DNA of 46,773 nucleotides from a virus. Position 1 is the first letter of the stretch. Each line of letters opens with the position of its first letter. Shown in pieces: positions 517-46,644 of the stretch. A model generated the notes under the pieces. That model saw nothing but the letters and a program-made list of their open reading frames with translations. It did no database searches and was not told where the DNA came from. Position numbers and translations under genes: made by a program. The DNA lies in the IMG/VR virus record IMGVR_UViG_3300033143_004479, positions 1-46,773 of that record. One strand, written 5' to 3'.

Positions 517-1395
517 TTACCAGCCCAGCCCAGGGAGCCATAAATCCTTACTATAGCTAGATTTATTTCCAGACCAGCAAGCCTCCCAATATGGGCAAGC
601 TCGCTGGTAGTAATTGCAGGCTGTATAGTTCTCAGGCCAAGTTTGCTCAGGAACTGGTGAACGCGTTTGGCATCCTTCTAATTGCATTAACTGCCACCCT
701 AGCTCAGCCTTGAATCTATCGACTCTATCCCGGTTAAAAGGTACATCAATAAACTGAAAACTCCCGGAGCTAATGTTAATGGCATGAATAATACACTCAC
801 CAAACTCATCACCATAAGCAGCCTTGCCTAGAGCCAGTTGCCCGGACATCTGCCCATGTGAGTACAGATAGTGTTCAAGCATAACTGGGCCGACCTCATA
901 CCTACTGGTCTTATGGTCAATAAAATAAACCAGCCCATCCTTTCTAACAATAAGGTCTATCCGGGCAGAATACCGTAGCTCCTTATCTGAGACACATTCC
1001 TCAGTACCCAGTACCTCTACCCCTTCTAACCACTCCTTAACCCCAGCTAGGTATTTCTCTAGCAAAGGAGGCAGCTTATCTCTATGATAAGGGTTAGCTC
1101 TCATACTGCTGCCACTCTGCACCTTCTCATCGAACTCAGAGCTAGGGAGCAGTTGTTCTAACAATGACTTGTGTATATAGTCACCAATTAAATCAGGTGG
1201 AACCTGGCCGGTCCTCTGTAACTGATTATAGAGGAGTTCCATAACCTTATGCCAAGCTATTCCAAATAGAGCTGGCCTACTATTAAACGCCTGTTCCTTA
1301 CCTCTCAACTCCTGCTGCCTGAAGAACAACCTCTTAGGACAAAGCATGAAGTCACTTAAAAGGGTCCAGTCTAGGGTTTTGTAAATATACATCAT
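517..1395 (-). CDS. Cas4/RecB-like PD-(D/E)XK nuclease with probable Fe-S cluster
   Basis: 292 residues. The nuclease core shows H49 (AWHK), D147 (RIDLIV) and D160-H-K162 (the DHKTS motif), followed by a Q-containing helix (QMSGQLALG), the usual RecB/Cas4 arrangement. One cysteine near the N-terminus (C19, LCPKRLFF) and a C-terminal trio (C260, C267, C273) match the split four-cysteine pattern that holds a 4Fe-4S cluster in Cas4 and AddB. Expected to be a DNA exonuclease that makes ends for recombination. Two adjacent ATGs overlap the upstream stop (ATGATG); the second (1392) is better spaced from AAGGAG. It pairs functionally with the Sak4-like ATPase in the same leftward arm. Confidence 0.85.
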   Translation of the reverse strand: MMYIYKTLDWTLLSDFMLCPKRLFFRQQELRGKEQAFNSRPALFGIAWHKVMELLYNQLQRTGQVPPDLIGDYIHKSLLEQLLPSSEFDEKVQSGSSMRANPYHRDKLPPLLEKYLAGVKEWLEGVEVLGTEECVSDKELRYSARIDLIVRKDGLVYFIDHKTSRYEVGPVMLEHYLYSHGQMSGQLALGKAAYGDEFGECIIHAINISSGSFQFIDVPFNRDRVDRFKAELGWQLMQLEGCQTRSPVPEQTWPENYTACNYYQRACPYWEACWSGNKSSYSKDLWLPGLGW

Positions 1396-1948: not shown

Positions 1949-2140
1949 TTACCTTTCGCTTGCTGCTAGTTCGCTCAGGTGTTGAAGTCTTTCCCTTAAA
2001 TAAGAAAAACTCTGCTCACCATACACCATTACATCACCCTGCACCTCTCTTTGTTTGTTCTCGGCAAGCATCATCTCGCGTTCACAAATTATGCCTTCCA
2101 TTTCGCACCTGATACTTAATAATCTAGCCTCACTCATCAT
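1949..2140 (-). CDS. Small helical hypothetical protein (63 aa)
   Basis: MMSEARLLSIRCEMEGIICEREM... Almost wholly predicted helix with charged residues, coiled-coil-like. Spaced 5 bases before the next leftward gene and preceded by AAAGGCGAG. A typical small early phage protein; no function assigned. Confidence 0.6.
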   Translation of the reverse strand: MMSEARLLSIRCEMEGIICEREMMLAENKQREVQGDVMVYGEQSFSYLRERLQHLSELAASER

Positions 2141-2160
2141 TCTCGCCTTTCTTGGTAGGT

Positions 2161-2360
2161 GCGGGCAGACGCGGGCATGAAGCTAGTGCCGTTGTCGAGT
2201 AGCGTGGGCTTACTCTACGATCACAGACGGCCTAGCTTTGAATCCGCCCACGCGCCCGATCCAATCTAAAGCCATGCCGCGCCGCCCTGCCTCTCTAGGT
2301 GCAGCCGGGAACTACCACCTCAGCCACACTCGGCTAGAGGCTATCCCGGATTCTGCACCA
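2161..2360. ncRNA. Putative structured RNA element with pseudoknot
   Basis: GC-rich intergenic stretch dense in perfect complementarities. P2 is an 11-bp helix, 2180-2191 with 2228-2238, with one bulge at 2187. Inside it P3 (GAGTA 2197-2201 / TACTC 2211-2215) closes a 9-base loop. Eight bases of that loop (GCGTGGGC, 2202-2209) pair perfectly with GCCCACGC at 2246-2253, outside P2, making a pseudoknot. Outer pairing CGGGC 2172-2176 / GCCCG 2254-2258 closes the unit. A second arm pairs 2298-2310 with 2344-2359 (13 bp with a 3-base bulge) and carries hairpin 2318-2325 / 2332-2340. Helices are fully Watson-Crick, so the strand is not decided, but flanking genes are leftward. A 21-codon leftward ORF (2275-2210) overlaps it and is not convincing. 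No T-run follows, so it is not a terminator. Confidence 0.5.
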
Positions 2361-2362
2361 TT

Positions 2363-2479
2363 TTATTCCATCATATGCATAATCTTGTCTAAGCTACACA
2401 TTACAGCTACCGAGTATATTGTGAACGCAATCATATACCAGCTAACAAATACCCAAACTAGTTTTTTAAGAAGTGTCAT
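2363..2479 (-). CDS. Small membrane protein (38 aa)
   Basis: MTLLKKLVWVFVSWYMIAFT... with a long hydrophobic stretch (about residues 7-30) after a Lys-containing N-terminus. Ribosome site AGAGGAAA lies in the end of the preceding membrane-peptide gene, 4 bases from its stop. Length, charge pattern and coupling suggest a real small membrane protein of unknown role. Confidence 0.5.
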   Translation of the reverse strand: MTLLKKLVWVFVSWYMIAFTIYSVAVMCSLDKIMHMME

Positions 2480-3145: not shown

Positions 3146-3298
3146 CTAATCCTCCAACTCGAAGATGCTGCACTCCTCACAATCAGCTACATGGACCGGC
3201 CAGCAGTTCTCGCAATAAGGATCACCATCTTTGGCACAGTAACCATAATCCTCATGAACTGCTCCACATTTAGTGCATATTTCTTGGTCATCCTGCAT
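3146..3298 (-). CDS. Cys-rich zinc-ribbon-like small protein (50 aa)
   Basis: MQDDQEICTKCGAVHEDYGYC... contains CTKCG, then C21, C29, C32 (CENC) and a last pair CEEC, in total four CxxC-type or single Cys sites with two His, the look of one or two small zinc knuckles. First gene of the leftward arm, 53 bases from the promoter -10 at 3351-3356, with a GAGG ribosome site. A small zinc protein in this first position could be an early regulator or host-takeover protein, but that is inference. Confidence 0.65.
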   Translation of the reverse strand: MQDDQEICTKCGAVHEDYGYCAKDGDPYCENCWPVHVADCEECSIFELED

Positions 3299-5143: not shown

Positions 5144-5227
5144 CACCACAATCTACCCAAACCCAGTAACAACAACACCTTCCAGAAGTTAGTTAGATAT
5201 CTATCTAACACCCCTAAAAGTTAGGTA

Positions 5228-5277
5228 AAAATAGTGCATATTTTCCACTTGACAAACGGTAACTCACGTGCTATACT
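5228..5277 (+). promoter_or_regulatory. Rightward promoter P2 with upstream box
   Basis: TTGACA (5249-5254), 17-base spacer, TATACT (5272-5277). Four bases upstream of the -35 is AAAATAGTGCATATTTT (5228-5244), a partly palindromic 17-mer found at identical spacing at promoter P3. Confidence 0.8.
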
Positions 5278-5331
5278 AGAGATAGATGACAAGAAACACG
5301 GTTTGTGGGGTATGGAAAGGAGTATAGAATC

Positions 5332-5556
5332 ATGGTGACAGTAACATTGACAGACAGTGCCGCGTATCATTTGGTAGGTGCAGCACTAGGAGCAGTTATG
5401 ACAATAGGCCGGGCAGTGGGAGAAGCTGAGATAGCTGCTCGTGGCCATTATCAAGAAGCAGCAGAGGAGCTATTATCCCAGCTTGCACAAGCAGGCTCGG
5501 ATATACCAGAACGGGTAGCTTATGGTGTAGCTACCTTTCAAGCGTCAAGAGCCTAG
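5332..5556 (+). CDS. Small early protein (74 aa)
   Basis: The start used is MVTVTLTDSAAYHLVG at 5332, which has AAAGGAG nine bases upstream; a longer frame from 5305 lacks a ribosome site. Mostly helical and Ala-rich (ALGAVMTIGRAVGEAEIAARG). First gene under promoter P2. No function recognised. Confidence 0.7.
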   Translation: MVTVTLTDSAAYHLVGAALGAVMTIGRAVGEAEIAARGHYQEAAEELLSQLAQAGSDIPERVAYGVATFQASRA

Positions 5557-5596
5557 AGTAACAGGTAACAAGGGGGATATGTAAGGAGCAATAAAC

Positions 5597-5806
5597 ATGA
5601 AAGAGCCCTGGCAAATGACGAAGAACGAGTATTTTCAAGTGTACACACGCCCAAAACTGGGCATTGAGCTAACATCAGCCCAAAGACGGAGTAATAAAGC
5701 TAAGAAGGCACGAGGTAGGGATCGGCACGCTAGATATATCCAGCAGGCGATAGCAGAAGGCAAGGATGTGCCTGCTGTGGTACTGGCGGAGTTTAGGAAA
5801 GGGTAA
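5597..5806 (+). CDS. Small basic early protein (69 aa)
   Basis: MKEPWQMTKNEYFQVYT then a Lys/Arg-rich middle (RRSNKAKKARGRDRHARY) and the end AVVLAEFRKG. MTKxEY openings are seen in many small phage proteins. The basic middle suggests nucleic-acid binding (inference). Ribosome site AAGGAG; ends just before an intrinsic terminator. Confidence 0.7.
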   Translation: MKEPWQMTKNEYFQVYTRPKLGIELTSAQRRSNKAKKARGRDRHARYIQQAIAEGKDVPAVVLAEFRKG

Positions 5807-5829
5807 AACAACAAGCAAGGGGGGTTGCA

Positions 5830-5864
5830 GGCTCGGATCATAACAAGGTCCGGGCCTTCTTTAT
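5830..5864 (+). terminator. Intrinsic terminator
   Basis: Stem 5830-5839 with 5847-5856 (10 pairs, two G-U) and a 7-base loop, followed by TTCTTTAT. It lies after the gene ending at 5806 and before promoter P3. Confidence 0.75.
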
Positions 5865-5897
5865 GCACTGATATGCTGATAGCTGGTAGGCCCAGTG

Positions 5898-5947
5898 AAA
5901 ATAGTGTGTATTTTATGCTTGACACGGGGCTGGTTGTGTGCTATACT
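5898..5947 (+). promoter_or_regulatory. Rightward promoter P3 with upstream box
   Basis: TTGACA (5919-5924), 17-base spacer, TATACT (5942-5947). Upstream box AAAATAGTGTGTATTTT (5898-5914) lies four bases from the -35, as at P2. Confidence 0.8.
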
Positions 5948-5996
5948 TATCATAGTCAAGTAATAACCTGTGGGGATATGTAAGGAGTAGCAGATC

Positions 5997-6203
5997 ATGG
6001 CAAAGACAGCGATGTTATGCAAGGGTGACTTCAGGACAGAGCGTGGCGGGTATCACTTTGATGTATGGCCGGATACCTGTGAGATGTTGGGCCTGCCGAA
6101 AGACTATGAAGGTATGATCGAGGTAGCACTGGTATCTCACGAGCCGGCAGCCAGTGAGAACCTAGTCAATGAGCCTAGTATCAAGAGCATACTGGGAGGG
6201 TAG
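5997..6203 (+). CDS. Small early protein (68 aa)
   Basis: MAKTAMLCKGDFRTERGGYHFDVWPDTCEMLGLPKDY... a compact alpha/beta protein, alone between promoter P3 and a strong terminator, so it forms a single-gene transcript. Ribosome site AAGGAG. No family recognised; a small host-takeover or regulatory protein is possible but unproven. Confidence 0.65.
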   Translation: MAKTAMLCKGDFRTERGGYHFDVWPDTCEMLGLPKDYEGMIEVALVSHEPAASENLVNEPSIKSILGG

Positions 6204-6231
6204 AGCAGAGAGAGCAGCAAGGGGGGGCTAC

Positions 6232-6261
6232 AGGCCAGGCATGACAACCTGGCCTTTTCTA
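6232..6261 (+). terminator. Intrinsic terminator
   Basis: Perfect 8-bp stem, AGGCCAGG (6232-6239) with CCTGGCCT (6248-6255), with an 8-base loop, followed by TTTTCTAT. It ends the transcript from P3. Confidence 0.8.
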
Positions 6262-6947
6262 TGTGCTGGTAGCCAACCGGCAATGCGGCAATGGTTCACG
6301 TGTGCTGTGCTGGGCCAGTAACAGGTACCAGAACACCTGCCAGCCCTTATCATCTAACCTGGCCTAATCTGGCGTGCTCTACAATGACCTAGCCATAGGG
6401 TGAGGCTTTTATACCGAACCCTAAAACCCCCACGGGTCTAGGTGGTGGTATCGACCTTGCTCTTGGCTACGTTCCTATAATTAGCAAATAACCATAATCA
6501 GTACCTGTTTCTACTGTTATAGATGCTAGAGGCCTTCTCATGGTCAAGTGGTAGGCCCAGATGGAACTAGCCAAAATAAAAAAAAAAAGTAACTTTTTTC
6601 CATCCATAACTCCTTATCCAATAAGGAATAAACTTTTTTCTGTTATAATCCCTTACAGTTTCAGTAATTAGGTCAAAAGCAAAAAAGCCCCTGTTATAAC
6701 TCCTTATCAGTAAAGCAAATAACTTTTTCTTGGCTTGTATGGCTTAGAATAACCCTTTTTAACACTTTTCCAAAATAAAGCTGTTTCAGATGCAGCTAAC
6801 GCTGTTTTTTCGATGGGGTGACGAATATAGGGGGTAAAATAGTTATATCTAGTCTATATTGTAGTATATAACTGATAACTATAATTAGCACCTAGCTAGG
6901 TGTAATGAACTATAATAAGAAAAAATGAATAATTTTATATTTTTCAC

Positions 6948-6976
6948 TTGACTTTAGCCTTTTTCAGTAGTACTAT
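6948..6976 (+). promoter_or_regulatory. Rightward promoter P4 with no ORF behind it
   Basis: TTGACT (6948-6953), 17-base spacer, TACTAT (6971-6976), with an AT-rich upstream stretch. The next supported gene starts 400 bases on, behind its own promoter P5, so P4 may make an untranslated RNA. Confidence 0.55.
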
Positions 6977-7274
6977 GTAAACGGAAAGGTCTAATAAAAG
7001 AATAATAATAATAAGAGAGAGAGACAGGTAGAGAGATAGATATGACCTCTCTTTAGGCCCATCCGCCAGAGCACCCCCTCTGAGAGGCTAAAAACGCCAC
7101 TTACCGTTGTAAGTCCTTATAAAAAGGTCGAACTTTTTCAAGCACTTTTTGCCCTTTTGCATAACTGTAGTAATAACAGTAGATTATATCAGAATCCGGT
7201 CGGAAAAAGTTAATTACTTGTCAATAAAGGGTTTATGACGTGATAAAAGTTACTTTTTCTGAACCGCTTGTTAG

Positions 7275-7299
7275 CTTAATGAGAACCGTTCTCATTAAG
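7275..7299. promoter_or_regulatory. Near-perfect 25-bp palindrome (operator-like)
   Basis: Arms CTTAATGAGAAC and GTTCTCATTAAG are perfect 12-base inverted complements around a single central C. It lies 33 bases upstream of the -35 of promoter P5. With almost no loop it suits binding of a dimeric regulator or a replication protein better than a transcript hairpin. Confidence 0.65.
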
Positions 7300-7332
7300 G
7301 CGAGATTTTTCCACATTTTTCTAATTTTTCCC

Positions 7333-7758: not shown

Positions 7759-7890
7759 ATGCTGCCTTTTAATCAATATACCTACCCCCTTTCGCTGGCT
7801 GGAGGCTATGGTCAACCAAACACCTGGTTAAGAGGCTTGAGGGGAGTAGGTTATCATAATACCGACTACACTCGTTATAGGCAGATATAA
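7759..7890 (+). CDS. Small Gly/Tyr-rich protein (43 aa)
   Basis: MLPFNQYTYPLSLAGGYGQPNT... starts 2 bases after the previous stop; ends RYRQI. No clear ribosome site, so expression would rely on coupling. Its composition (G, Y, R, N) resembles short virion or DNA-associated peptides, but nothing specific can be said. Confidence 0.4.
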   Translation: MLPFNQYTYPLSLAGGYGQPNTWLRGLRGVGYHNTDYTRYRQI

Positions 7891-7906
7891 TGAGTTTAGT
7901 ATAATA

Positions 7907-7936
7907 GGGTACCCTGATCTGCCCACCAGGGTGCCC
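7907..7936 (+). terminator. Hairpin, possible weak terminator or leader structure
   Basis: 9-bp stem GGGTACCCT (7907-7915) with AGGGTGCCC (7928-7936), including one G-U pair, and a 12-base loop. It is followed by CGGCCCTTTAT, which is a poor T-tract. It may attenuate rather than terminate transcription into the packaging genes. Confidence 0.35.
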
Positions 7937-8000
7937 CGGCCCTTTATAAATTAGCTCATGTAAAAAATGAAATAACCTGCATAAAAAAGGAGTAAAAACA

Positions 8001-8850: not shown

Positions 8851-10560
8851 TTGATTACTAAAAAACAACTAGAAAAGCACGATTTAAGCGACGTTCGTTA
8901 TTGGTTCTTACACGACCTTTTTTACGCCTGCCAGGTGATTTTTCCCGATGTGGCTATTGAGCCCCACCTTGAGATGTGTAATTTTCTTGAGAACATGGGA
9001 AACCCAATCTCTGCTGCTAAATATAAAGAGCACCGTGAGTCTGTTACTCTTAAACAGCCAAACAAACTTTTGGTAGGGAGCAGAGGCATCCTCAAAAGTT
9101 CCATAAAGCAGGTTCATCTCGTGCGTCTTGGACTGATGAATCCAAATCTTAGGATTTTGGATTTGTTAATGACTCTTGAGAACGCAAAAGGGGATTTGTC
9201 CATGATTGCCAATATCCTGGACCATCCAGTTCTCAGGAGAGAGTTCGCTGATATAATCCCAGATGAGAAAGAAAGAAAGTCCTTACCCTGGAGCCAAGAA
9301 CGCCTTTGTCTAAAGCGTCCCAACAAGGTCCCGGAACCAACTTACACCGCTGCCGGGGTAGGTAAAAGGCTAACTTCCCGCCACTTCAACATTATAGCTG
9401 TAGATGATGGTGTAGCTGCTACTATCCATGATATGACCTCTGAAGAGATAAGACCTAATCCTAAAGATATAGACAGGATGATAGGAATGCACCGGGTCCA
9501 GTTTTCCGGCCTACTGGATGAGAAACCAGCCCACCGAGGCGACCCTAACTGGCTATACCCTTCCCAAATACTCTCACTTAACAACCGTTGGTGTGATGAT
9601 GATTATGTGGATTACATTGAGCGCTTTGAACCTAGCTTCGATGAGATGGTAATCCCTATCCGTTGGCCTGATGACCATCCTGATAAGAAGAAACGCAATA
9701 AACCAAGCTGGCCTACCGGTCCTTATGGCACCGAGCAAGCCCTGGGGGAGCTGGAGAGCAAGGTAACAACTTATATCTGGAACACTCAATACCTTTGTAA
9801 TCCTCATAATCCCGCAGAACAGATATTCAAAAAGGAATGGCTCCAGTTTTTTGATAAGTTCCCCGGCAAGCCACTTAACACTGTAGCTATAATGGACCCA
9901 GCCCTGAGCCTGGATAAGACAGCTTGCTTCACAGCAGTTATTGTAGTAAGCCAGGATGAGCTGGGTAACTGGTACATCAGGGAGGCCATTAGGGAGCACG
10001 CTGATACGGATAGGCAGCTAGATTTAGTGTTTAGCTTATGTGAGTCCTACCAAGACCAGGCCATGAGCTTATTTGCTATTGAGGATGTGTTGTTCCAGGC
10101 TAAAATTTTAGACCTGACCCAGAAAGACCCCAGGTATAGAAGGTTAAAAGAACTGGGGATAGCCCTAGTAGGGGAGCATCCTTACAAGAATGAGATAAAG
10201 GAGCAAAGGATAGAGGCCATGCAGCCCCGGTTCAGGAATAGCTCCATCTTCATCAGACGGGGGCTGAATGAGCTGGTTAATGAGCTTATCAGATACAGGA
10301 GAAAGACAGCTTCTATCAGAGACCTGATAGATGCCTTGTCTTATATACCCAGGTTACTATTTGACCCCCTGGGCAGAAGAGCCAAGCCTACTATTCAAGC
10401 AGGTGATAGTTTTAAGGATGGTATCAGATATGAAGATATAGAAGCTGAGATAATGGGGGCTGGTGGGCTGGATATATTTTCTGAACAGAGCCCGGAACTG
10501 GATACCGATGGCAGGTTAAGCTATGCCCAGGAAGGTGAGCTTGTTGCCGCCAACTGGTAA
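8851..10560 (+). CDS. terL: Terminase large subunit (569 aa)
   Basis: ATP-driven DNA packaging motor. The Walker A segment is the deviant GSRGILKSS at about residues 76-84, preceded by NKLLV; the Walker B-like FNIIAVDD is at 179-186. The C-terminal RNase H-like nuclease shows D349 (VAIMDPALS), E411-D412 (LFAIEDVLF) and D494 (DLIDALSYI). The order and spacing match phage large terminases of about this size. An in-frame stop lies just upstream of the TTG at 8851, so TTG is the only available start near the N-terminus; no strong ribosome site is seen. Confidence 0.92.
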   Translation: MITKKQLEKHDLSDVRYWFLHDLFYACQVIFPDVAIEPHLEMCNFLENMGNPISAAKYKEHRESVTLKQPNKLLVGSRGILKSSIKQVHLVRLGLMNPNLRILDLLMTLENAKGDLSMIANILDHPVLRREFADIIPDEKERKSLPWSQERLCLKRPNKVPEPTYTAAGVGKRLTSRHFNIIAVDDGVAATIHDMTSEEIRPNPKDIDRMIGMHRVQFSGLLDEKPAHRGDPNWLYPSQILSLNNRWCDDDYVDYIERFEPSFDEMVIPIRWPDDHPDKKKRNKPSWPTGPYGTEQALGELESKVTTYIWNTQYLCNPHNPAEQIFKKEWLQFFDKFPGKPLNTVAIMDPALSLDKTACFTAVIVVSQDELGNWYIREAIREHADTDRQLDLVFSLCESYQDQAMSLFAIEDVLFQAKILDLTQKDPRYRRLKELGIALVGEHPYKNEIKEQRIEAMQPRFRNSSIFIRRGLNELVNELIRYRRKTASIRDLIDALSYIPRLLFDPLGRRAKPTIQAGDSFKDGIRYEDIEAEIMGAGGLDIFSEQSPELDTDGRLSYAQEGELVAANW

Positions 10561-18251: not shown

Positions 18252-19247
18252 ATGGCACTTCCAAGTTATAGCCAGACTCTATCTACCTTTGTCAGTTCCA
18301 CTCTTGATGAACATACCAAGAATGTAATCGACCAGATATGGCGTGCTACTCCGTTAATGGCCTGGGCTGCCTCACACAGGCGTCCTCAGGTAGGCGGCAA
18401 GCGCGTCTTTATCCCGGTGGAATATGGCAAGAATACCGCTTTAATCCGTGCTGTAGGTAGGGGCACTAGTCTGCCTATCACCCAGGACGAGATTATCACA
18501 GAATGCTGGTATAATTGGCATACTTACATGAGTGGGTTGGCAAGGTATAGAGATGATGATTTAGAGAACACCGGCAAGTATGCTGTTTTTAACAAGCTGC
18601 AAGCCGAGATTGACAACATGGTAGCAGCCTTTAAGGAAGGTATTGAAGAGGATTTGTTCTCTGATGAGTCAACAGGAGCTAATAAGTTCTGTGGCTTACA
18701 AGGATTGATAGAAGATGTGGATACTGCAGCGCATGATACCAGTCAGACTGCTGGTGCTAAGACGGTAGGCAATTTGAACCGTGCCACCTATACCTGGTGG
18801 GGCAACTGGGGCCGGAACATGACCGGAAAAGACCCCTCGGTATGGATGACTTACTTCATGCGTGAGCAGTGTGATAATGTAGAGGCTTACACTGGTAGAT
18901 TGCCTGAGGTTATCATAACCCATGCAGTTGACCGGAACTTTTATGAGGATGAAGTAGGCGAGACTGTGCGAACCCTGCAGGTTAAGCTGGGTGATGTCGG
19001 CATCAGAGCGGTTGAATATAAGGGCATACCTTTCTTAACCAGTACCTATGCCACCCAGACCAGGATGTACTTCATAGGTGCTAATACTATGGAGTTAATT
19101 TATGAACCCAGAATGTGGTTCAAGAAAACCCCCTGGAAGGAACCTACCCAGCAGGCCTTTGATTATGCCCAGCAGATGCTGGCCAAGGGTCAGATGACCA
19201 TAAAGAAGCCTCGCGGGACCTCAGTTTTGTATAACATCAACAATTAA
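18252..19247 (+). CDS. Major capsid protein (331 aa)
   Basis: MALPSYSQTLSTFVSSTLDE... an N-arm helix followed by an alternating alpha/beta body, with KRVFIPVEYGKNTALIRAVGRG (E-loop-like), a long spine-like helix (NKLQAEIDNMVAAFKEGIEEDLFSD), an A-domain-like segment (EVIITHAVDRNFYEDEV) and GIPFLTSTYA near the end. Size, scaffold upstream and decoration-like gene downstream support an HK97-fold capsid subunit. No prohead protease is seen, so the N-arm is probably not cleaved by a phage-encoded enzyme. Confidence 0.88.
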   Translation: MALPSYSQTLSTFVSSTLDEHTKNVIDQIWRATPLMAWAASHRRPQVGGKRVFIPVEYGKNTALIRAVGRGTSLPITQDEIITECWYNWHTYMSGLARYRDDDLENTGKYAVFNKLQAEIDNMVAAFKEGIEEDLFSDESTGANKFCGLQGLIEDVDTAAHDTSQTAGAKTVGNLNRATYTWWGNWGRNMTGKDPSVWMTYFMREQCDNVEAYTGRLPEVIITHAVDRNFYEDEVGETVRTLQVKLGDVGIRAVEYKGIPFLTSTYATQTRMYFIGANTMELIYEPRMWFKKTPWKEPTQQAFDYAQQMLAKGQMTIKKPRGTSVLYNINN

Positions 19248-33882: not shown

Positions 33883-34896
33883 ATGATGAAAACTCTAGTA
33901 ATAGCTTCAAGAGACAATGGAACCTGGCTGGCGGAGCACCTTGGCTGTACCCTTTATAATGAAGGTAGCCAGGCTGGGTCAGGAATTGTAACCAAGGTTA
34001 ATGAAGTTCAGGATGTGTGGGAAAGGGTCATTGTCCTGGACGGTAATAACTATCCATCCCTCACACTTCTTACTCCCCAGGATTTGATAGCAGTAAGTCC
34101 TCTAGCTACCAAGTTCAATAATGATTACACCTATGCAGTTACCCTCCTGGAGGCTGAAGGACTAAGGGCTGCTACCAGCACCATCCCAGCCCTGGAGTGT
34201 GGAGTAATGGGCTGGTGGCAAGATGGCGAGTGGCAAGGTAAGCAGTGCCTGGCCATAGAGCAGAATGGCTTTATGAACCGAGACCTGGGCCTGCACTTAC
34301 CTGAAGCTCAAGGGGTTACAGTTTTAGGTATCCCTTCTAGTAGCTCACTTCTATCCAGCACCTTGTTTAAGCTGGATAACCTTCTTAAGGACCATTACAC
34401 TGGGCCTGTATGCTTACGCCTCTCGCTTCTAGGCAAGGACATCAGGGTAAGGTTTTTGAAGCTGGGTTTCCTCCCTGGATGGTTCGAGACAGTGCTGGAG
34501 ATTCAGCACCCTAATAGTAACCTTCTTGATATGCCCCTGAACATAACAGATAACATGGCAGTGGGGATTCTAGTATCTGTACCTCCTTATCCTTACCATG
34601 ATATAGACCAGGTAACTCAGGGAACTGTGATAACCAGGCTAGAACCTGGAGCAGCTAGGCACCTGAGATGGCTGGATGTGAAGAAGGATAATGAGCACTA
34701 TAGATGTGTTGGTAATACGGGAAGGATGTTCTACGCTACAGCCTGGGGAAGTGCTGAGGCTTCTAGTAAAGAAGCTCGAATGCGTATTTATAGAAGCCTA
34801 AGGGGTATAGGCTTGGATAACATACAGTATCGAACAGATGTGAATACTACTAGTGGGGTGGTTATTGAGCAGCTTGAAGCCTTAAAACTTCTCTAA
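33883..34896 (+). CDS. Degenerate PurD-like (ATP-grasp fold) protein (337 aa)
   Basis: MKTLVIASRDNGTWLAEHLG resembles the N-domain of glycinamide ribonucleotide synthetase (PurD). The C-terminus aligns with its last domain: NMAVGILVSVPPYPY, TQGTVITRLEP, GRMFYATAWGSAEASSKEA and LDNIQYRTDVN correspond to the PurD blocks for vvLas-GYP, G-I-gl, GRVL-vta-G and f-yR-DIg. The catalytic EFNxRFGDPE block is replaced by RFLKLGFLPGWFET and the ATP-grasp Lys loop is not recognisable; it is also about 85 residues shorter than typical PurD. So it is probably a non-enzymatic derivative. ATGATG start; the second ATG is likely. Its last 35 bases overlap the convergent gene. Confidence 0.65.
   Translation: MMKTLVIASRDNGTWLAEHLGCTLYNEGSQAGSGIVTKVNEVQDVWERVIVLDGNNYPSLTLLTPQDLIAVSPLATKFNNDYTYAVTLLEAEGLRAATSTIPALECGVMGWWQDGEWQGKQCLAIEQNGFMNRDLGLHLPEAQGVTVLGIPSSSSLLSSTLFKLDNLLKDHYTGPVCLRLSLLGKDIRVRFLKLGFLPGWFETVLEIQHPNSNLLDMPLNITDNMAVGILVSVPPYPYHDIDQVTQGTVITRLEPGAARHLRWLDVKKDNEHYRCVGNTGRMFYATAWGSAEASSKEARMRIYRSLRGIGLDNIQYRTDVNTTSGVVIEQLEALKLL
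34862..34877 (+). repeat. 16-bp direct repeat, copy A
   Basis: TTATTGAGCAGCTTGA at the end of the PurD-like gene; an identical copy is at 35231-35246, and the gene at 34862-35218 lies between. Confidence 0.85.
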
Positions 34897-36114: not shown

Positions 36115-36483
36115 TTAAGGGCTCTCTACCAATTCAGGATTCTCATAGAGGTTCCCAATAATCTTATACCTAAGAGGAATCACCTCGGTTAGTTTATAAC
36201 TCCTATCCCCATCCATCCAGGAGATATACCACGACCCATGCAGCTTATCCCATTCAATTATACCTCTGGCTCCATCTTCTTCATCTTCTACAATATCCTT
36301 GTGATATTCCTCTTTGCCAGTTGAGTCTTTGAAACCAGTAGCTTGCATAAGAACACAATCTGGCGCAGAATAACCAGCCACTTGGCCCTTCTGACCCGCC
36401 CAACTACCATCACTATAAATCGTAACACTATCTAACCAACAATGGTTCTTTGTATCCCAGGCTTTATACTTTGTCTCTCCCAT
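36115..36483 (-). CDS. YopX-like protein (122 aa)
   Basis: YKAWDTKNHCWLD near the start, LMQATGFKDSTGKEEYHKDIVED in the middle and YKIIGNLYENPELVES at the end are the three standard blocks of the YopX family, common in phages and prophages; function unknown. TAATG overlap with the metallophosphoesterase gene. Confidence 0.88.
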   Translation of the reverse strand: MGETKYKAWDTKNHCWLDSVTIYSDGSWAGQKGQVAGYSAPDCVLMQATGFKDSTGKEEYHKDIVEDEEDGARGIIEWDKLHGSWYISWMDGDRSYKLTEVIPLRYKIIGNLYENPELVESP

Positions 36484-37367
36484 TACTCACCGCCTTTCAA
36501 AAACCCCTTATCTAACCCAGTAAATAACAATGGCTCATTATCAAGCAACAGCAAGAAACCATTAACCCATTTAGGATGAGTAGTAAGCTGCTGCATCACA
36601 TATTCACACTTCTCATAATGCACCAGCCCACCTATATCTATACAATGAAACCTGCCGCTCCTGTCAAAGGTATGACAGGTGAGATGCCCATGAGTAATAA
36701 CTTGATGACACAGATGTTTAGCTGCCATGTCCTTGCCAACCTGCCCAGATATTTGTCTATAGCTCTTGGGATGTGATACCATCCATTGCTCCGGGCCGGG
36801 ATTTATCATAGCCATTGGCCTTTGGCTAATGTGCAGCCGAGCATCTTGCATAACCATGCAAACCACATCAGTGAACTGTAGCTCATAGTTAAGCAGCCTG
36901 AGTAACCTGGCATCATGGTTGCCCATTATAATAGTAATCTTGTCAAACTGCTCCAGCAGCATGAGCAAGCATTTCTCAACTCCCTTACTCTCCTGTTCCC
37001 AAGTACTCTTCAAGCTGCTCTTGAAGACACTAAACATAGCCTGGTCAAACATATCCCCGGCTATCAATAGCTCTTTACACCCGTGCTCCCTGGCTATATC
37101 CATAAAGTAAAGGGTGAAGGGAATATGAATATAAGGTAGGTGAAGGTCTGAGATTATAGCCAGGTTACTGGAGGTTATCTTAGGATAATCAGTAAAGGTC
37201 TTAACCCAGCTTAGCCCCCATACAAAATCAGCAGTCTTAATGACACGGTAAACTGTAGCCCGGTGCACCCCACATATCTCAGCAACCTGGTCAGGCTTCA
37301 TGCCTTCTGCAGTGAGCTGTAATATCTCTCGCTTTACTTCTTCTGTTACCTTATTTGGTGTTGCCAT
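36483..37367 (-). CDS. HTH-metallophosphoesterase fusion (294 aa)
   Basis: Residues 1-45 form a resolvase/IS-type helix-turn-helix (GMKPDQVAEICGVHRATVYRVI). The rest is a calcineurin-like phosphoesterase with SDLHLP (about 74), AGDMFD (105), GNHDAR (150), a SHPKS block and THGHLTCH near the end: the full set of metal ligands. Phage homologues with this HTH fusion are known as putative DNA-associated phosphatases. The ATG at 37367 follows a TTG in the same frame; TGATG overlap with the upstream gene. Confidence 0.88.
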   Translation of the reverse strand: MATPNKVTEEVKREILQLTAEGMKPDQVAEICGVHRATVYRVIKTADFVWGLSWVKTFTDYPKITSSNLAIISDLHLPYIHIPFTLYFMDIAREHGCKELLIAGDMFDQAMFSVFKSSLKSTWEQESKGVEKCLLMLLEQFDKITIIMGNHDARLLRLLNYELQFTDVVCMVMQDARLHISQRPMAMINPGPEQWMVSHPKSYRQISGQVGKDMAAKHLCHQVITHGHLTCHTFDRSGRFHCIDIGGLVHYEKCEYVMQQLTTHPKWVNGFLLLLDNEPLLFTGLDKGFLKGGE

Positions 37368-37882
37368 CAATACACCTTTCTAGTCTGCTCAGGCTCCTTC
37401 CTCGCAAACTTACCCCCTTTGTCTCTAACCCTCTTAGGTACATATTCTACTGGCCCTTTATACCGGTGCTCATCAAGCAAACCCCAGAGCCTTAGCATTC
37501 CCCTGACCCCGGAAGCAAAACCATCATAATTAGGGTCAACAGTTATTATCTTAACCCCATTCTCCAAGGCTGTGTCTATCTCACAATCACAACCCTGGCT
37601 AATGCCATAAGGAGTAGCAGCTATCAAGACCTTGCACAGCTTTACTATCTCAGCTTGATAAGCCAGGACATCTTCTACGGTACATACATCTTTCAAGAGT
37701 GCACTGGTAAAAGCCTCTACTTTATGGGGTACATAAAGGGCCAGCTCAGGAATCTTCTCCTCTAGGTGCCTGGCTACTTCTATAGCCGCCAGCACATTTG
37801 CTGACATCTCTAGCCCAGTAGCCTCATCGCCTGCTTTGCCCCTTATCTGCATGGAGAAATATGCTGGTATCTTATTATTCAT
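37367..37882 (-). CDS. DUF4406/nucleoside-deoxyribosyltransferase-like protein (171 aa)
   Basis: The start chosen is MNNKIPAYFSMQIRG at 37882, after AGAAAGG. IPAYFSMQIRGKAGDE, NVLAAIEVARHLEEKIPEL and ATPYGISQGCDCEIDTALENGVKIITV are the blocks of the DUF4406 and deoxyribosyltransferase-like fold (Rossmann-type, with a conserved Ser/Gly near the end). Possibly acts on nucleotides or bases; the catalytic glutamate cannot be assigned with confidence. Confidence 0.65.
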   Translation of the reverse strand: MNNKIPAYFSMQIRGKAGDEATGLEMSANVLAAIEVARHLEEKIPELALYVPHKVEAFTSALLKDVCTVEDVLAYQAEIVKLCKVLIAATPYGISQGCDCEIDTALENGVKIITVDPNYDGFASGVRGMLRLWGLLDEHRYKGPVEYVPKRVRDKGGKFARKEPEQTRKVY

Positions 37883-41503: not shown

Positions 41504-44032
41504 TTAAAGCTCCGCCCAGTTGTTACCCACTGAAATGTTAGCAGGGATATAAAACATCTCACCACTAGGGGCAGTAAGAGGGATTTTCATAGCTTGCTGT
41601 ATCAACGACTTAAAACCTTCAACATCATCCGGTGCTACCGACCAAATCATTTCATCATGTACCTGTAATCTAAATCTTGGTTTATGCCCTTCCCATTCTA
41701 CAGTTTGTACCCCTTCCCACAACCTAGCCAATGCGAGGTTAAGCAAATCAGCCACGGTGCTTTGAGGTATGTAACTAAAGGCATCCCGCAATATATCCTT
41801 GTTCCATTTCTCAGTGATAAACCCGTGACTATCCCTATAAATGTTCTTTATCCTATCATAAAACACCCGTGACCTACCTAGCAAGTTCCGCAGGCACCTA
41901 TCCTTGTCCAGTTTCATCTTTATCTCTTCTCGCCACTGAGCCAGCTTGGGAAACTTTTTTTGGTAGCTTTGATAAATATACTCAGCCTCATTTAGGGACA
42001 GGTTAGCGTTAAAAGCAAACCCTTCAACACCCTGTCCATAGTTAGTTGCATGTACCAGTTTTTTAGCAAGCGCTCTTCTCTCCTCAGTAATATCATTACC
42101 GAATACGGTCCAAACTCTGTGGGCAACATAACTAAACAAATCATAGCCATTCTCAAACCTATCAGTAAACCCAGGCTCCTCAGCACAATAACCCACCACT
42201 CTAGCCTCAGCCTGGCTATAATCAGCAGAAACAAATACATCCCCTTCATCAGGTAGATACAGGCTTCTGATAATCCCACCTCTACCCTTACCCTTAGGCA
42301 CGTTCTGCAAGTTCCCGCCCGTACCGGTAATGCTTTTCTCACTTGCCAGCCTACCTGTCTTGGTCCCGGCCAACTTGTAACTACACCTCATCCTTTCATC
42401 TCTATCCAGCTTACACTCAAGATAAGTACCAATAAGTTTAGCCAGGCTCCTATATTCCAAGATGAGCTTACATAATTCTCTAACCGACTGTGTGGTCTTG
42501 GCCGCTTGCATAATTCTAGTAAGTGCTTCTTCATCAGTTGTTACCCTTTTGCTCCCATACTTTTTGTACTTGCTCCTATAACGTTTAGGAACCTTCAAGG
42601 CCCGGTACAACAAGTCACCTACCTGGTCATTAGAGGCTAGGTTGAAGTGAGGCTTGAAGTTATCTAGCTTAGTTACCCAGTTGAGAAAGTTCTTAGACCA
42701 GTGCCCCGCCTTAGTATAGTCCCTGCCACTAAGCTCATAGTCATAAATTTTTTGCTGAATTTTTTCCCTTCTTTTTACCTCACTAAGAGGCATCCAACCT
42801 TCAGGCAAGTAATCATCATTAACCTTTTTCTCAACTGCTTTAAGCTCCTCAACCAGCTTAGCCTTAACCTTTTCCCTACCAGCTACATTATACCTGACTC
42901 CTTCTAGTTGAGCTTCCATTAAGGGCTTTAACAAGTCAGTATAATGCTCCTGGTAAAACTCTGTCAAGCCCCTTGCCTTTATCTCAGCCTGCAGAACCTG
43001 AGCTATCTCCCAGGTGCAGATAACATCCATACAGTTATACCAGGCCAGTTTAGGCCAGGTCATCTTATCCAGCTCCACGGCTTTCTTAACCACACCCTTG
43101 TAATACGGGTGCCTGGTATGGATACTGGTTAGGAAGGCCAGTGACCTAGGAAACTCAACATTCAACAAGTGCTGAGCATACATAGTATCAAAGGACCAGT
43201 TATTAAAGGGATAACCAGCCCGTTTGAGATAGTTAATATCAAAGCTGCCATTTTGAGTTACCTTAGGTTTGCTGCTGTTCAATAATGCCCAAATTGCTTC
43301 CTTAGCACCAGCAGTACCTTTCTCCCCATCCTGATACATATAAGGATAAAGCCCAAAACTGACACCCTCACTGCCATCTGAGAACCCTACACAGGTAATG
43401 GCATGGGTCTGCATATTGGTTTCTATATCCACTGATAACATGTCTGCCTTTAGAAGCCGGGTAGCTGCACCAAGGGCAAGATATGCTCTATCCGGCCAGC
43501 TACAAACAGCTACAGGCTTTTCATACTCCCTTGTTTTACTCTCCTCCTTAGCCCTAGCCAAATCCAGTCTCAGCACGACCCGCCAGGGCACCCAGTTCCT
43601 GAGCACATAAGCAGGGTGAATAGTTGGGATTACTTTCCTTTCCTCGCCATTGATAATAACAGGTAAGATAGAACCCCGCCAGTCAGTAATCTTTTCATCC
43701 TCACCTATACCAGTAATAGCTCTGAGACTATGTTCACCAAGAGCTATAATAATGTTAGATTCACTAGCTATTATCTCCTGTGTCAGCCTGGTAACCCCAG
43801 CAGCCACAACAGAAGCTGGCAGCTTATTAAAATTATTATCAGGTGGCCTTACCTGGACCACATTAGTAATATAACAATCATCCCTACCCAGCCCCACCTC
43901 ACCCAGCACCTCATCCAGTAATCTGCCAGCAGCACCTACAAAAGGCACCCCACACTGCTCTTCTTCCCTGCCCGGAGCCTCACCCACAAGCATTATTTTA
44001 CTCTTTATATCACCACAGACTGGTACTAGCAT
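41504..44032 (-). CDS. Uracil-DNA glycosylase / family A DNA polymerase fusion (842 aa)
   Basis: Residues 1-165 are a family 4 UDG-like domain: GEAPGREEEQCGVPFVGAA (17-35), YITNVVQVRPPDNN (54-67) and IPTIHPAYVLRN (135-146). Residues 195-390 carry a DnaQ-like 3'-5' exonuclease (D202-x-E204; FDINYL; NCMDVICTWE). The rest is family A polymerase: motif A DYSQAEAR (D604), motif B RALAKKLVHATNYG (R653, K657, H661, Y665) and motif C HDE (792-794). H661 falls where most enzymes have Phe or Tyr. The UDG cysteines that hold Fe-S are replaced (see finding). ATG overlaps the sigma gene stop. Confidence 0.93.
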   Translation of the reverse strand: MLVPVCGDIKSKIMLVGEAPGREEEQCGVPFVGAAGRLLDEVLGEVGLGRDDCYITNVVQVRPPDNNFNKLPASVVAAGVTRLTQEIIASESNIIIALGEHSLRAITGIGEDEKITDWRGSILPVIINGEERKVIPTIHPAYVLRNWVPWRVVLRLDLARAKEESKTREYEKPVAVCSWPDRAYLALGAATRLLKADMLSVDIETNMQTHAITCVGFSDGSEGVSFGLYPYMYQDGEKGTAGAKEAIWALLNSSKPKVTQNGSFDINYLKRAGYPFNNWSFDTMYAQHLLNVEFPRSLAFLTSIHTRHPYYKGVVKKAVELDKMTWPKLAWYNCMDVICTWEIAQVLQAEIKARGLTEFYQEHYTDLLKPLMEAQLEGVRYNVAGREKVKAKLVEELKAVEKKVNDDYLPEGWMPLSEVKRREKIQQKIYDYELSGRDYTKAGHWSKNFLNWVTKLDNFKPHFNLASNDQVGDLLYRALKVPKRYRSKYKKYGSKRVTTDEEALTRIMQAAKTTQSVRELCKLILEYRSLAKLIGTYLECKLDRDERMRCSYKLAGTKTGRLASEKSITGTGGNLQNVPKGKGRGGIIRSLYLPDEGDVFVSADYSQAEARVVGYCAEEPGFTDRFENGYDLFSYVAHRVWTVFGNDITEERRALAKKLVHATNYGQGVEGFAFNANLSLNEAEYIYQSYQKKFPKLAQWREEIKMKLDKDRCLRNLLGRSRVFYDRIKNIYRDSHGFITEKWNKDILRDAFSYIPQSTVADLLNLALARLWEGVQTVEWEGHKPRFRLQVHDEMIWSVAPDDVEGFKSLIQQAMKIPLTAPSGEMFYIPANISVGNNWAEL

Positions 44033-45668: not shown

Positions 45669-45845
45669 TTAGTATCCATGCTTCCAATTTGCCACTAACT
45701 CACTAGCACAACCTTCTTCATAGAAGAACTTAATCGCTGCATCTGAAACCCCGGCCAGAAATATCTCAGCCAGCTTTATAGCAGCGTGATCAAAGATTTC
45801 TAGGTCTCTTTGCTCTTTAGCAGTCGGTTTCTTCTTCTTAGCCAT
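45669..45845 (-). CDS. Small basic/acidic helical protein (58 aa)
   Basis: MAKKKKPTAKEQRDLEIFDH... basic start then helical acidic body ending ELVANWKHGY. Overlaps the Sak4-like gene by 8 bases. Possibly an accessory to recombination proteins; no family. Confidence 0.55.
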   Translation of the reverse strand: MAKKKKPTAKEQRDLEIFDHAAIKLAEIFLAGVSDAAIKFFYEEGCASELVANWKHGY

Positions 45846-46644
45846 TTTCAGTTACTCCTGTATCAAACTTCTTCCTAACCTTAACCAACATCTTCTCAAT
45901 ATCCGGTTCCTCAAACATTTCAAAGCAATCCCATCTGCTGGTTGCTCTAAATCCTTCTCCGCCCCTGGTTTGCAATTTATAGTTTAACTGCCCTTTTTCC
46001 TTACCTGGAAATACCCTACATCTCCACCTCTCATCAAACCATTTACTAATAATGCTACCGGTTTTGAGCTTCTTCCCAGCAGCATCAATTTGAAACTCCA
46101 TAGCACCCGTTACTTCATTCATCTCATAAGTTTCATGGCATATTAAGATGCGATTACAGGGTAAGGCCAGAAAATTATGAAAAAACTGCATGGCTCGGAA
46201 GGCTAAGGCTCCATAAATAGGTAAAAAACTACTGCCCTTTTCAGGTAAGAGTGGAAGCCCGCCCATTTCCATCTGAGCCTTGCACCATTCAAAGCAGCAC
46301 TCAGTCATTGACAAAAAGCTATCAACAACCACTACATCATAAGGGCAATCCCTAGCTAGTTCCTTCATCTTTTTACATGCCAAACCAAAATCATGCCCAG
46401 CCTCTTTACCCGCATAAGGAGCTGCCCGGTACTGGTTAAAATCGATCCTACCAGCTAGGCCTGGTCGGTGGGCTAAGCTCATCATTCCTTGGTCAAAATC
46501 AAACCAGAAGTGTTTCCCCAAAGCTGTAGCAGCCGTTCTGGTCTTCCCGGTACCAGATGCACCTATCAAAGCTATTGCCCAGGGTTCCCAGCTTAGGTCA
46601 GCTAGTGACTGAACTTGTGACAGTTGGGTTGTTTGTTCCGGCAT
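45838..46644 (-). CDS. Sak4-like RecA-fold ATPase (268 aa)
   Basis: Walker A GASGTGKT (28-35) and Walker B VVVVDSF (104-110), with a DFDQG element (FWFDFDQGM) after the P-loop, and the KGQLNYKLQTRGGEGFRATSRW block near the C-terminus. This layout matches phage Sak4/AAA_24 single-strand annealing ATPases involved in recombination. GGAG ribosome site. Works with the SSB-like gene and the Cas4-like nuclease in the same arm. Confidence 0.85.
   Translation of the reverse strand: MPEQTTQLSQVQSLADLSWEPWAIALIGASGTGKTRTAATALGKHFWFDFDQGMMSLAHRPGLAGRIDFNQYRAAPYAGKEAGHDFGLACKKMKELARDCPYDVVVVDSFLSMTECCFEWCKAQMEMGGLPLLPEKGSSFLPIYGALAFRAMQFFHNFLALPCNRILICHETYEMNEVTGAMEFQIDAAGKKLKTGSIISKWFDERWRCRVFPGKEKGQLNYKLQTRGGEGFRATSRWDCFEMFEEPDIEKMLVKVRKKFDTGVTENG

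Follow-up and report, generated by a model that had tools for sequence, protein, structure and literature searches.

A candidate kissing-loop structured RNA between two small genes of the leftward early operon of a tailed phage

Gene context of the 2161-2361 region

The sequence analysed is a 46,773-base IMG/VR virus record of a tailed phage, referred to in its entirety as the window, and the features discussed below are collected in Table 1. Leftward genes occupy the left end up to about position 3180 and, in a circular record, would continue from 46644 to about 34862. The order of exonuclease, Sak4, polymerase and primase is also kept in distant relatives, consistent with a circular or permuted genome that has been opened within its early block. 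In the polymerase fusion the uracil-DNA-glycosylase domain is N-terminal, an arrangement shared with distant phages of groundwater, cyanobacterial and methanogen origin. A further minus-strand gene (36483-37370) encodes a protein with an N-terminal helix-turn-helix and a metallophosphoesterase domain, and near the end of the late region a 337-aa ORF (33883-34896, plus strand) weakly matches a phosphoribosylglycinamide synthetase domain at its C-terminus, with a score that stays under the curated cut-off. The rightward early arm (5225-6260, plus strand) is built of short promoter-terminator units, unlike the leftward block, with similar promoters at 5249 and 5919 and strong hairpin terminators at 5829-5857 and 6232-6255.

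Table 1. Coordinates of the structured element, its parts and the surrounding genes and signals.
Feature	Position	Strand	Remarks
Whole structured RNA element	2161..2361	-	Two domains, untranslated; lowest fold energy; sense-frame stops
Domain I	2298..2359	-	Interrupted long hairpin; -36.9 kcal/mol alone
Linker	2288..2297	-	TAGAGAGGCA; joins the domains
Domain II	2163..2287	-	Three-way junction closed by P1
Arm P2	2238..2264	-	7-bp hairpin, 2264-2258/2244-2238, 13-nt loop
Arm P3	2181..2237	-	11-bp stem, 2237-2227/2192-2181, one bulge, loose middle
L2 side of 8-bp kissing helix	2246..2253	-	GCGUGGGC
L3 side of 8-bp kissing helix	2202..2209	-	GCCCACGC
Upstream small ORF	2363..2479	-	38 aa from ATG; membrane-spanning by eye
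Spacer with ribosome-binding site of 63-aa ORF	2141..2160	-	GAAAGGCGAGA; unpaired in the fold
Downstream ORF	1949..2140	-	63 aa; no family
Two sigma-70-like promoters	3507-3479, 3378-3351	-	Could drive leftward early transcript
Exonuclease	517-1395	-	
Terminase large subunit	8851-10560	+	phrog_38
Major head protein	18252-19247	+	
Uracil-DNA-glycosylase/family A DNA polymerase fusion	41504-44032	-	
Sak4-like annealing protein	45838-46644	-	

The element begins directly after the stop codon of the 38-aa ORF and ends 20 nt before the ATG of the 63-aa ORF, and both of these flanking ORFs are read on the minus strand. Its GC content is 62%, compared with 36% just upstream, 43% in the next gene and 45.7% overall, in agreement with the original prediction of a GC-rich stretch set among AT-rich immediate neighbours. 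Stops interrupt all three minus-strand (sense) frames. On the plus strand a single open frame (2238-2534) crosses the element, running against the operon, and gave no family match. A scan of the minus strand found no promoter-like site between 3351 and the element, and no T-run or intrinsic terminator (hairpin plus T-run) was found at the element in a pattern scan, so that a terminator, already considered unlikely when the locus was first noted, is excluded as far as such a scan can say. With no terminator of its own and no promoter-like site from 3351 onward, the element should be part of the operon mRNA.

Predicted fold and its rarity

The minus strand from 2361 to 2161 has a predicted fold of -97.3 kcal/mol, organised as two domains. 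The five helices originally predicted within these 200 bases are all present, some of them with bulges or interruptions, and two others had been overlooked. In domain I, what had been described as a 13-bp helix is present as outer stems of 7 bp (2359-2353/2304-2298) and 6 bp (2349-2344/2310-2305) separated by a three-base interruption, and the putative last 8-bp helix is an inner hairpin of 5 and 4 bp with one bulge (2341-2337 and 2335-2332/2325-2317). An alternative pairing is available between AGAGGC (2294-2289) in the linker and GCCTCT (2341-2336) of domain I.

Domain II is closed by stem P1, one of the two overlooked helices, which has 16 bp (2287-2272/2180-2163) and two 1-nt bulges; the chain then passes through a 7-nt joiner into P2, the other overlooked helix, continues without a gap into P3, and returns without a gap into P1. 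The junction thus has no unpaired J2/3 and J3/1 bases, and P1 stacked on P3 amounts to about 27 bp, interrupted by bulges. The 11-bp helix noted previously is the stem of P3, with one bulge, and the 5-bp helix (GAGTA/TACTC, 2215-2211/2201-2197) forms the hairpin at the top of this arm, with a 9-nt loop. The crossing helix proposed as a pseudoknot is also present, pairing GCGTGGGC at 2202-2209 with GCCCACGC at 2246-2253, and because L2 carries one side of these 8 bp, the crossing helix is a loop-loop (kissing) contact.

The energetic balance between the kissing and the nested forms of domain II was estimated. The nested fold has an energy of -60.1 kcal/mol; with both loop segments left free the value is -51.1 kcal/mol, to which stacking of the 8-bp helix adds -20.1 kcal/mol. 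For the kissing form to be the more stable of the two, the pseudoknot penalty must therefore stay under about 11 kcal/mol, and published penalties are near 9-12 kcal/mol. On these estimates the two forms may be closely balanced in energy.

Most helices of the element are plain inverted repeats with Watson-Crick pairs and are present on both strands. P2, which uses one G.U pair, is complete on the minus strand only; the combination of P2 and the loop-loop arrangement is therefore complete only there, and this favours the minus strand. A strand call from energy alone was rejected, as shuffled sequences differ by the same amount between strands; the lower energy of the minus strand is because of its G+U content. 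The minus strand is thus favoured by the operon direction, the tight fit between two minus-strand ORFs, P2 and the lack of open sense frames.

Among the 9,316 200-base segments taken from both strands of the 46.8-kb window, the one at 2161 on the minus strand has the lowest fold energy. This energy was equalled in 2 of 2000 dinucleotide shuffles, and the corresponding figure for the plus strand is 0 of 2000. Taken by itself, fold stability does not reach genome-wide significance once the many windows are corrected for, and it is matched in 30 of the 15,200 windows of related phage DNA (about 0.2%). The loop-loop match was equalled in only one of 2000 dinucleotide shuffles, and nowhere else in the window do two loops of predicted hairpins match each other so strongly. 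Across the 15,200 windows from distant phage relatives, neither the loop-loop score of the element nor a weaker one (18) together with an unusually stable fold was seen. In a sequence-only scan for kissing hairpins, which ignores the rest of the fold, the score of the element was met in 154 of 200 shuffles of the window. The rare thing is the combination of fold stability and loop-loop match, and the earlier argument that density of helices and GC-richness speak against chance stands for this combination and not for fold stability by itself.

A separate pair of hairpins of 9 and 10 bp, with complementary loops GGCAGAT/ATCTGCC, is located at 7870-7937 on the plus strand, just upstream of ORFs that precede the terminase gene. 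It tied for the best score in a 1.6-Mb scan, was reached by 4 of 200 window shuffles, and overlaps sigma-70-like -10 boxes; it may therefore be a late-promoter operator combined with a leader hairpin, and not a kissing contact in RNA.

Search for relatives and known families

None of the 4,227 families of Rfam 15, a library that includes the epsC/EAR family, matched the element at the gathering score or up to an E value of 10, and the only hit was a chance 26-base snoRNA match that adjoins the element (E 2.4). No tRNA or tmRNA cloverleaf was found in it by ARAGORN or Rfam, and inspection by eye led us to reject domain I as a tRNA-like fold, the order of its stems being wrong. A blastn search of the element against phages and plasmids gave no homologue. 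Exact 16-17-mers of the element are present in 25 stretches of IMG/VR, roughly the number expected by chance, and were rejected as homologues, those inspected all lying inside ORFs; a covariance model run on 24 16-mer loci gave one weak match, positioned away from the 16-mer site.

Neighbouring proteins used as bait yielded no relatives. The polymerase fusion could be aligned with 80 IMG/VR loci, and the best of these is only 36% identical. Two covariance models, R1 for domain II and R2 for the whole element, were each built from the single sequence, and such models reach only fairly close relatives. With these, 84 related loci, 50 complete records of relatives and about 1,200 prokaryote genomes were scanned without a credible hit. 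The strongest stray hit, from a phage record at E 0.18, has several helices broken and most of domain II missing. With its nearest polymerase relatives only 36% identical, the phage is nearly a singleton among the available sequences, and the missing homologues therefore say little.

Two censuses of non-coding GC-rich structures in the relatives relied on crude gene calling with the phage's own element masked, and are left out of account. One distant relative has a structured, GC-rich stretch of its own, placed between two early ORFs and likewise before a 63-aa ORF (L038, 133-260, plus strand), for which Rfam gave no match; it is not homologous to the element and was rejected as an analogue. 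Structures in L083 and L084 were rejected as a tRNA neighbourhood and a terminator-like stretch, and those in L077 because they lie inside ORFs.

Possible roles of the element

The sequence gives good support to the proposition that the leftward early arm contains a pseudoknotted, structured, untranslated RNA. The element is probably a functional RNA of the fold described, and most likely an untranslated structured RNA made within the leftward early mRNA. As to the particular mechanism, we tentatively propose, at a confidence short of probable, that it acts in cis as an intercistronic block. The element of about 200 nt would be transcribed inside the leftward early mRNA, possibly from one of the two promoters in Table 1, and would fold during its synthesis into two domains, a hairpin and a three-way junction, with the 8-bp kissing loop able to hold the two arms of the junction together. 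This rigid block between cistrons could then fix the ends of the flanking early messages, or how long these last. It would be cut within its helices (the stack of P1 on P3 among them) or next to them, and would protect the resulting ends from exonucleases; the ribosome site of the gene that follows, 3' of stem P1, would stay open. The T7 early region has RNase III sites that are single irregular hairpins between early genes of a polycistronic mRNA. These and the element are both stable intercistronic structures of early RNA, whereas the element has a two-domain fold. Such a junction goes beyond what a hairpin for processing or stability needs, and this counts against a cis block.

The main rival to an intercistronic block is a separate noncoding RNA that is cut from the early transcript and acts in trans, either by binding a phage or host protein or by self-pairing through its loops. 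The compactness of the 127-nt three-way junction, its paired ends, its two complementary loops and the tight boundaries between ORFs are consistent with this, but a promoter, terminator or processing site of its own was not found, and we consider such an RNA possible although on the unlikely side. The packaging RNA of phi29 is likewise a three-way junction, of about 120 nt, with paired ends and complementary loops on two arms, but the likeness is one of topology only. Packaging RNA pairs between copies, whereas the 8-nt complementary loops of the element can pair within one molecule; moreover, the element has no match to the phage packaging RNA family, which is included in Rfam, and is not near packaging genes. 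Rather than a phi29-type packaging ATPase, the phage has an ordinary terminase large subunit (phrog_38), located 6.5 kb from the element, and its polymerase is of family A and not B. GOLLD, ROOL and other ornate RNAs are also linked to phages or prophages and built with kissing loops, but GOLLD and ROOL are several hundred nucleotides long and have families, whereas the element has 200 nt and none. It is similarly conceivable, without being likely, that the element founds a class of phage RNA of its own, in which a two-domain molecule with a kissing-loop three-way junction is released from the early transcript and acts during infection in trans or as a self-assembling scaffold.

A cis-acting element in the nascent RNA that modifies RNA polymerase near the start of the long early operon would be in keeping with its position: the candidate leftward promoters lie about 1 kb upstream, and ahead is a block of leftward genes that amounts to about 15 kb if the genome is circular. 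The EAR (epsC) RNA of Bacillales is a pseudoknotted RNA located between genes inside a long operon, and in these respects resembles the element, which differs in having no Rfam match. The put RNAs of HK022 are found downstream of early promoters, and consist of about 70 nt in two simple stem-loops (PMC9378689). Both they and the element are structured, untranslated and act or would act in cis in an early phage operon near a promoter, but the element, at about 200 nt, is a kissing-loop three-way junction. An element of the put or EAR type is expected to have downstream terminators needing readthrough, but the leftward strand has no excess of terminator-like sites over chance, which makes an antitermination role less plausible, and further leftward promoter-like sites are positioned downstream (302-274 and 42967-42938). 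We therefore regard modification of the polymerase as unlikely.

That the element is a chance or neutral GC-rich stretch without function is improbable. It would be in keeping with the lack of any homologue and with the proportion of related-phage windows that match its stability, but not with the joint rarity of the fold and the loop-loop match, nor with the sharp island of GC exactly between two ORFs.

A folded single-stranded DNA or cruciform, serving replication start, strand switching or packaging, is very unlikely. The Watson-Crick helices present on both strands, and a plus strand that also folds far better than its shuffles, agree with a DNA structure, but the full arrangement of P2 and the loop-loop contact exists on the minus strand only, and the terminase genes are far away. 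The suggestion of a replication structure found no specific support, and a better candidate for the replication origin is the 750-base AT-rich stretch at 6560-7320 (plus strand), which is without convincing genes and contains repeats, for example ATAACTCCTTAT and AAGTAACTTTTT, in direct and inverted order.

A self-cleaving ribozyme or riboswitch is highly improbable: hammerhead ribozymes and purine riboswitches also have three-way junctions with loop-loop contacts, but no Rfam ribozyme or riboswitch matched, the junction lacks the unpaired J2/3 and J3/1 bases, no terminator follows the element, and the unpaired ribosome site argues against a switch that hides it, so that the earlier suggestions of a ribozyme or leader switch were not borne out. 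In the T4 gene 32 operator, a small mRNA pseudoknot is bound by gp32, which then spreads over the ribosome site. Both it and the element are pseudoknotted and placed ahead of a phage gene, but the next gene here is the 63-aa ORF without a family, and no binding stretch of this kind was identified.

In genomes as dense as those of phages, a 200-base stretch with much structure and no gene suggests that the RNA is useful. The element is a single orphan sequence and a well-defined candidate for a new phage RNA, and confirmation by homologues would make it a phage RNA family not yet listed.
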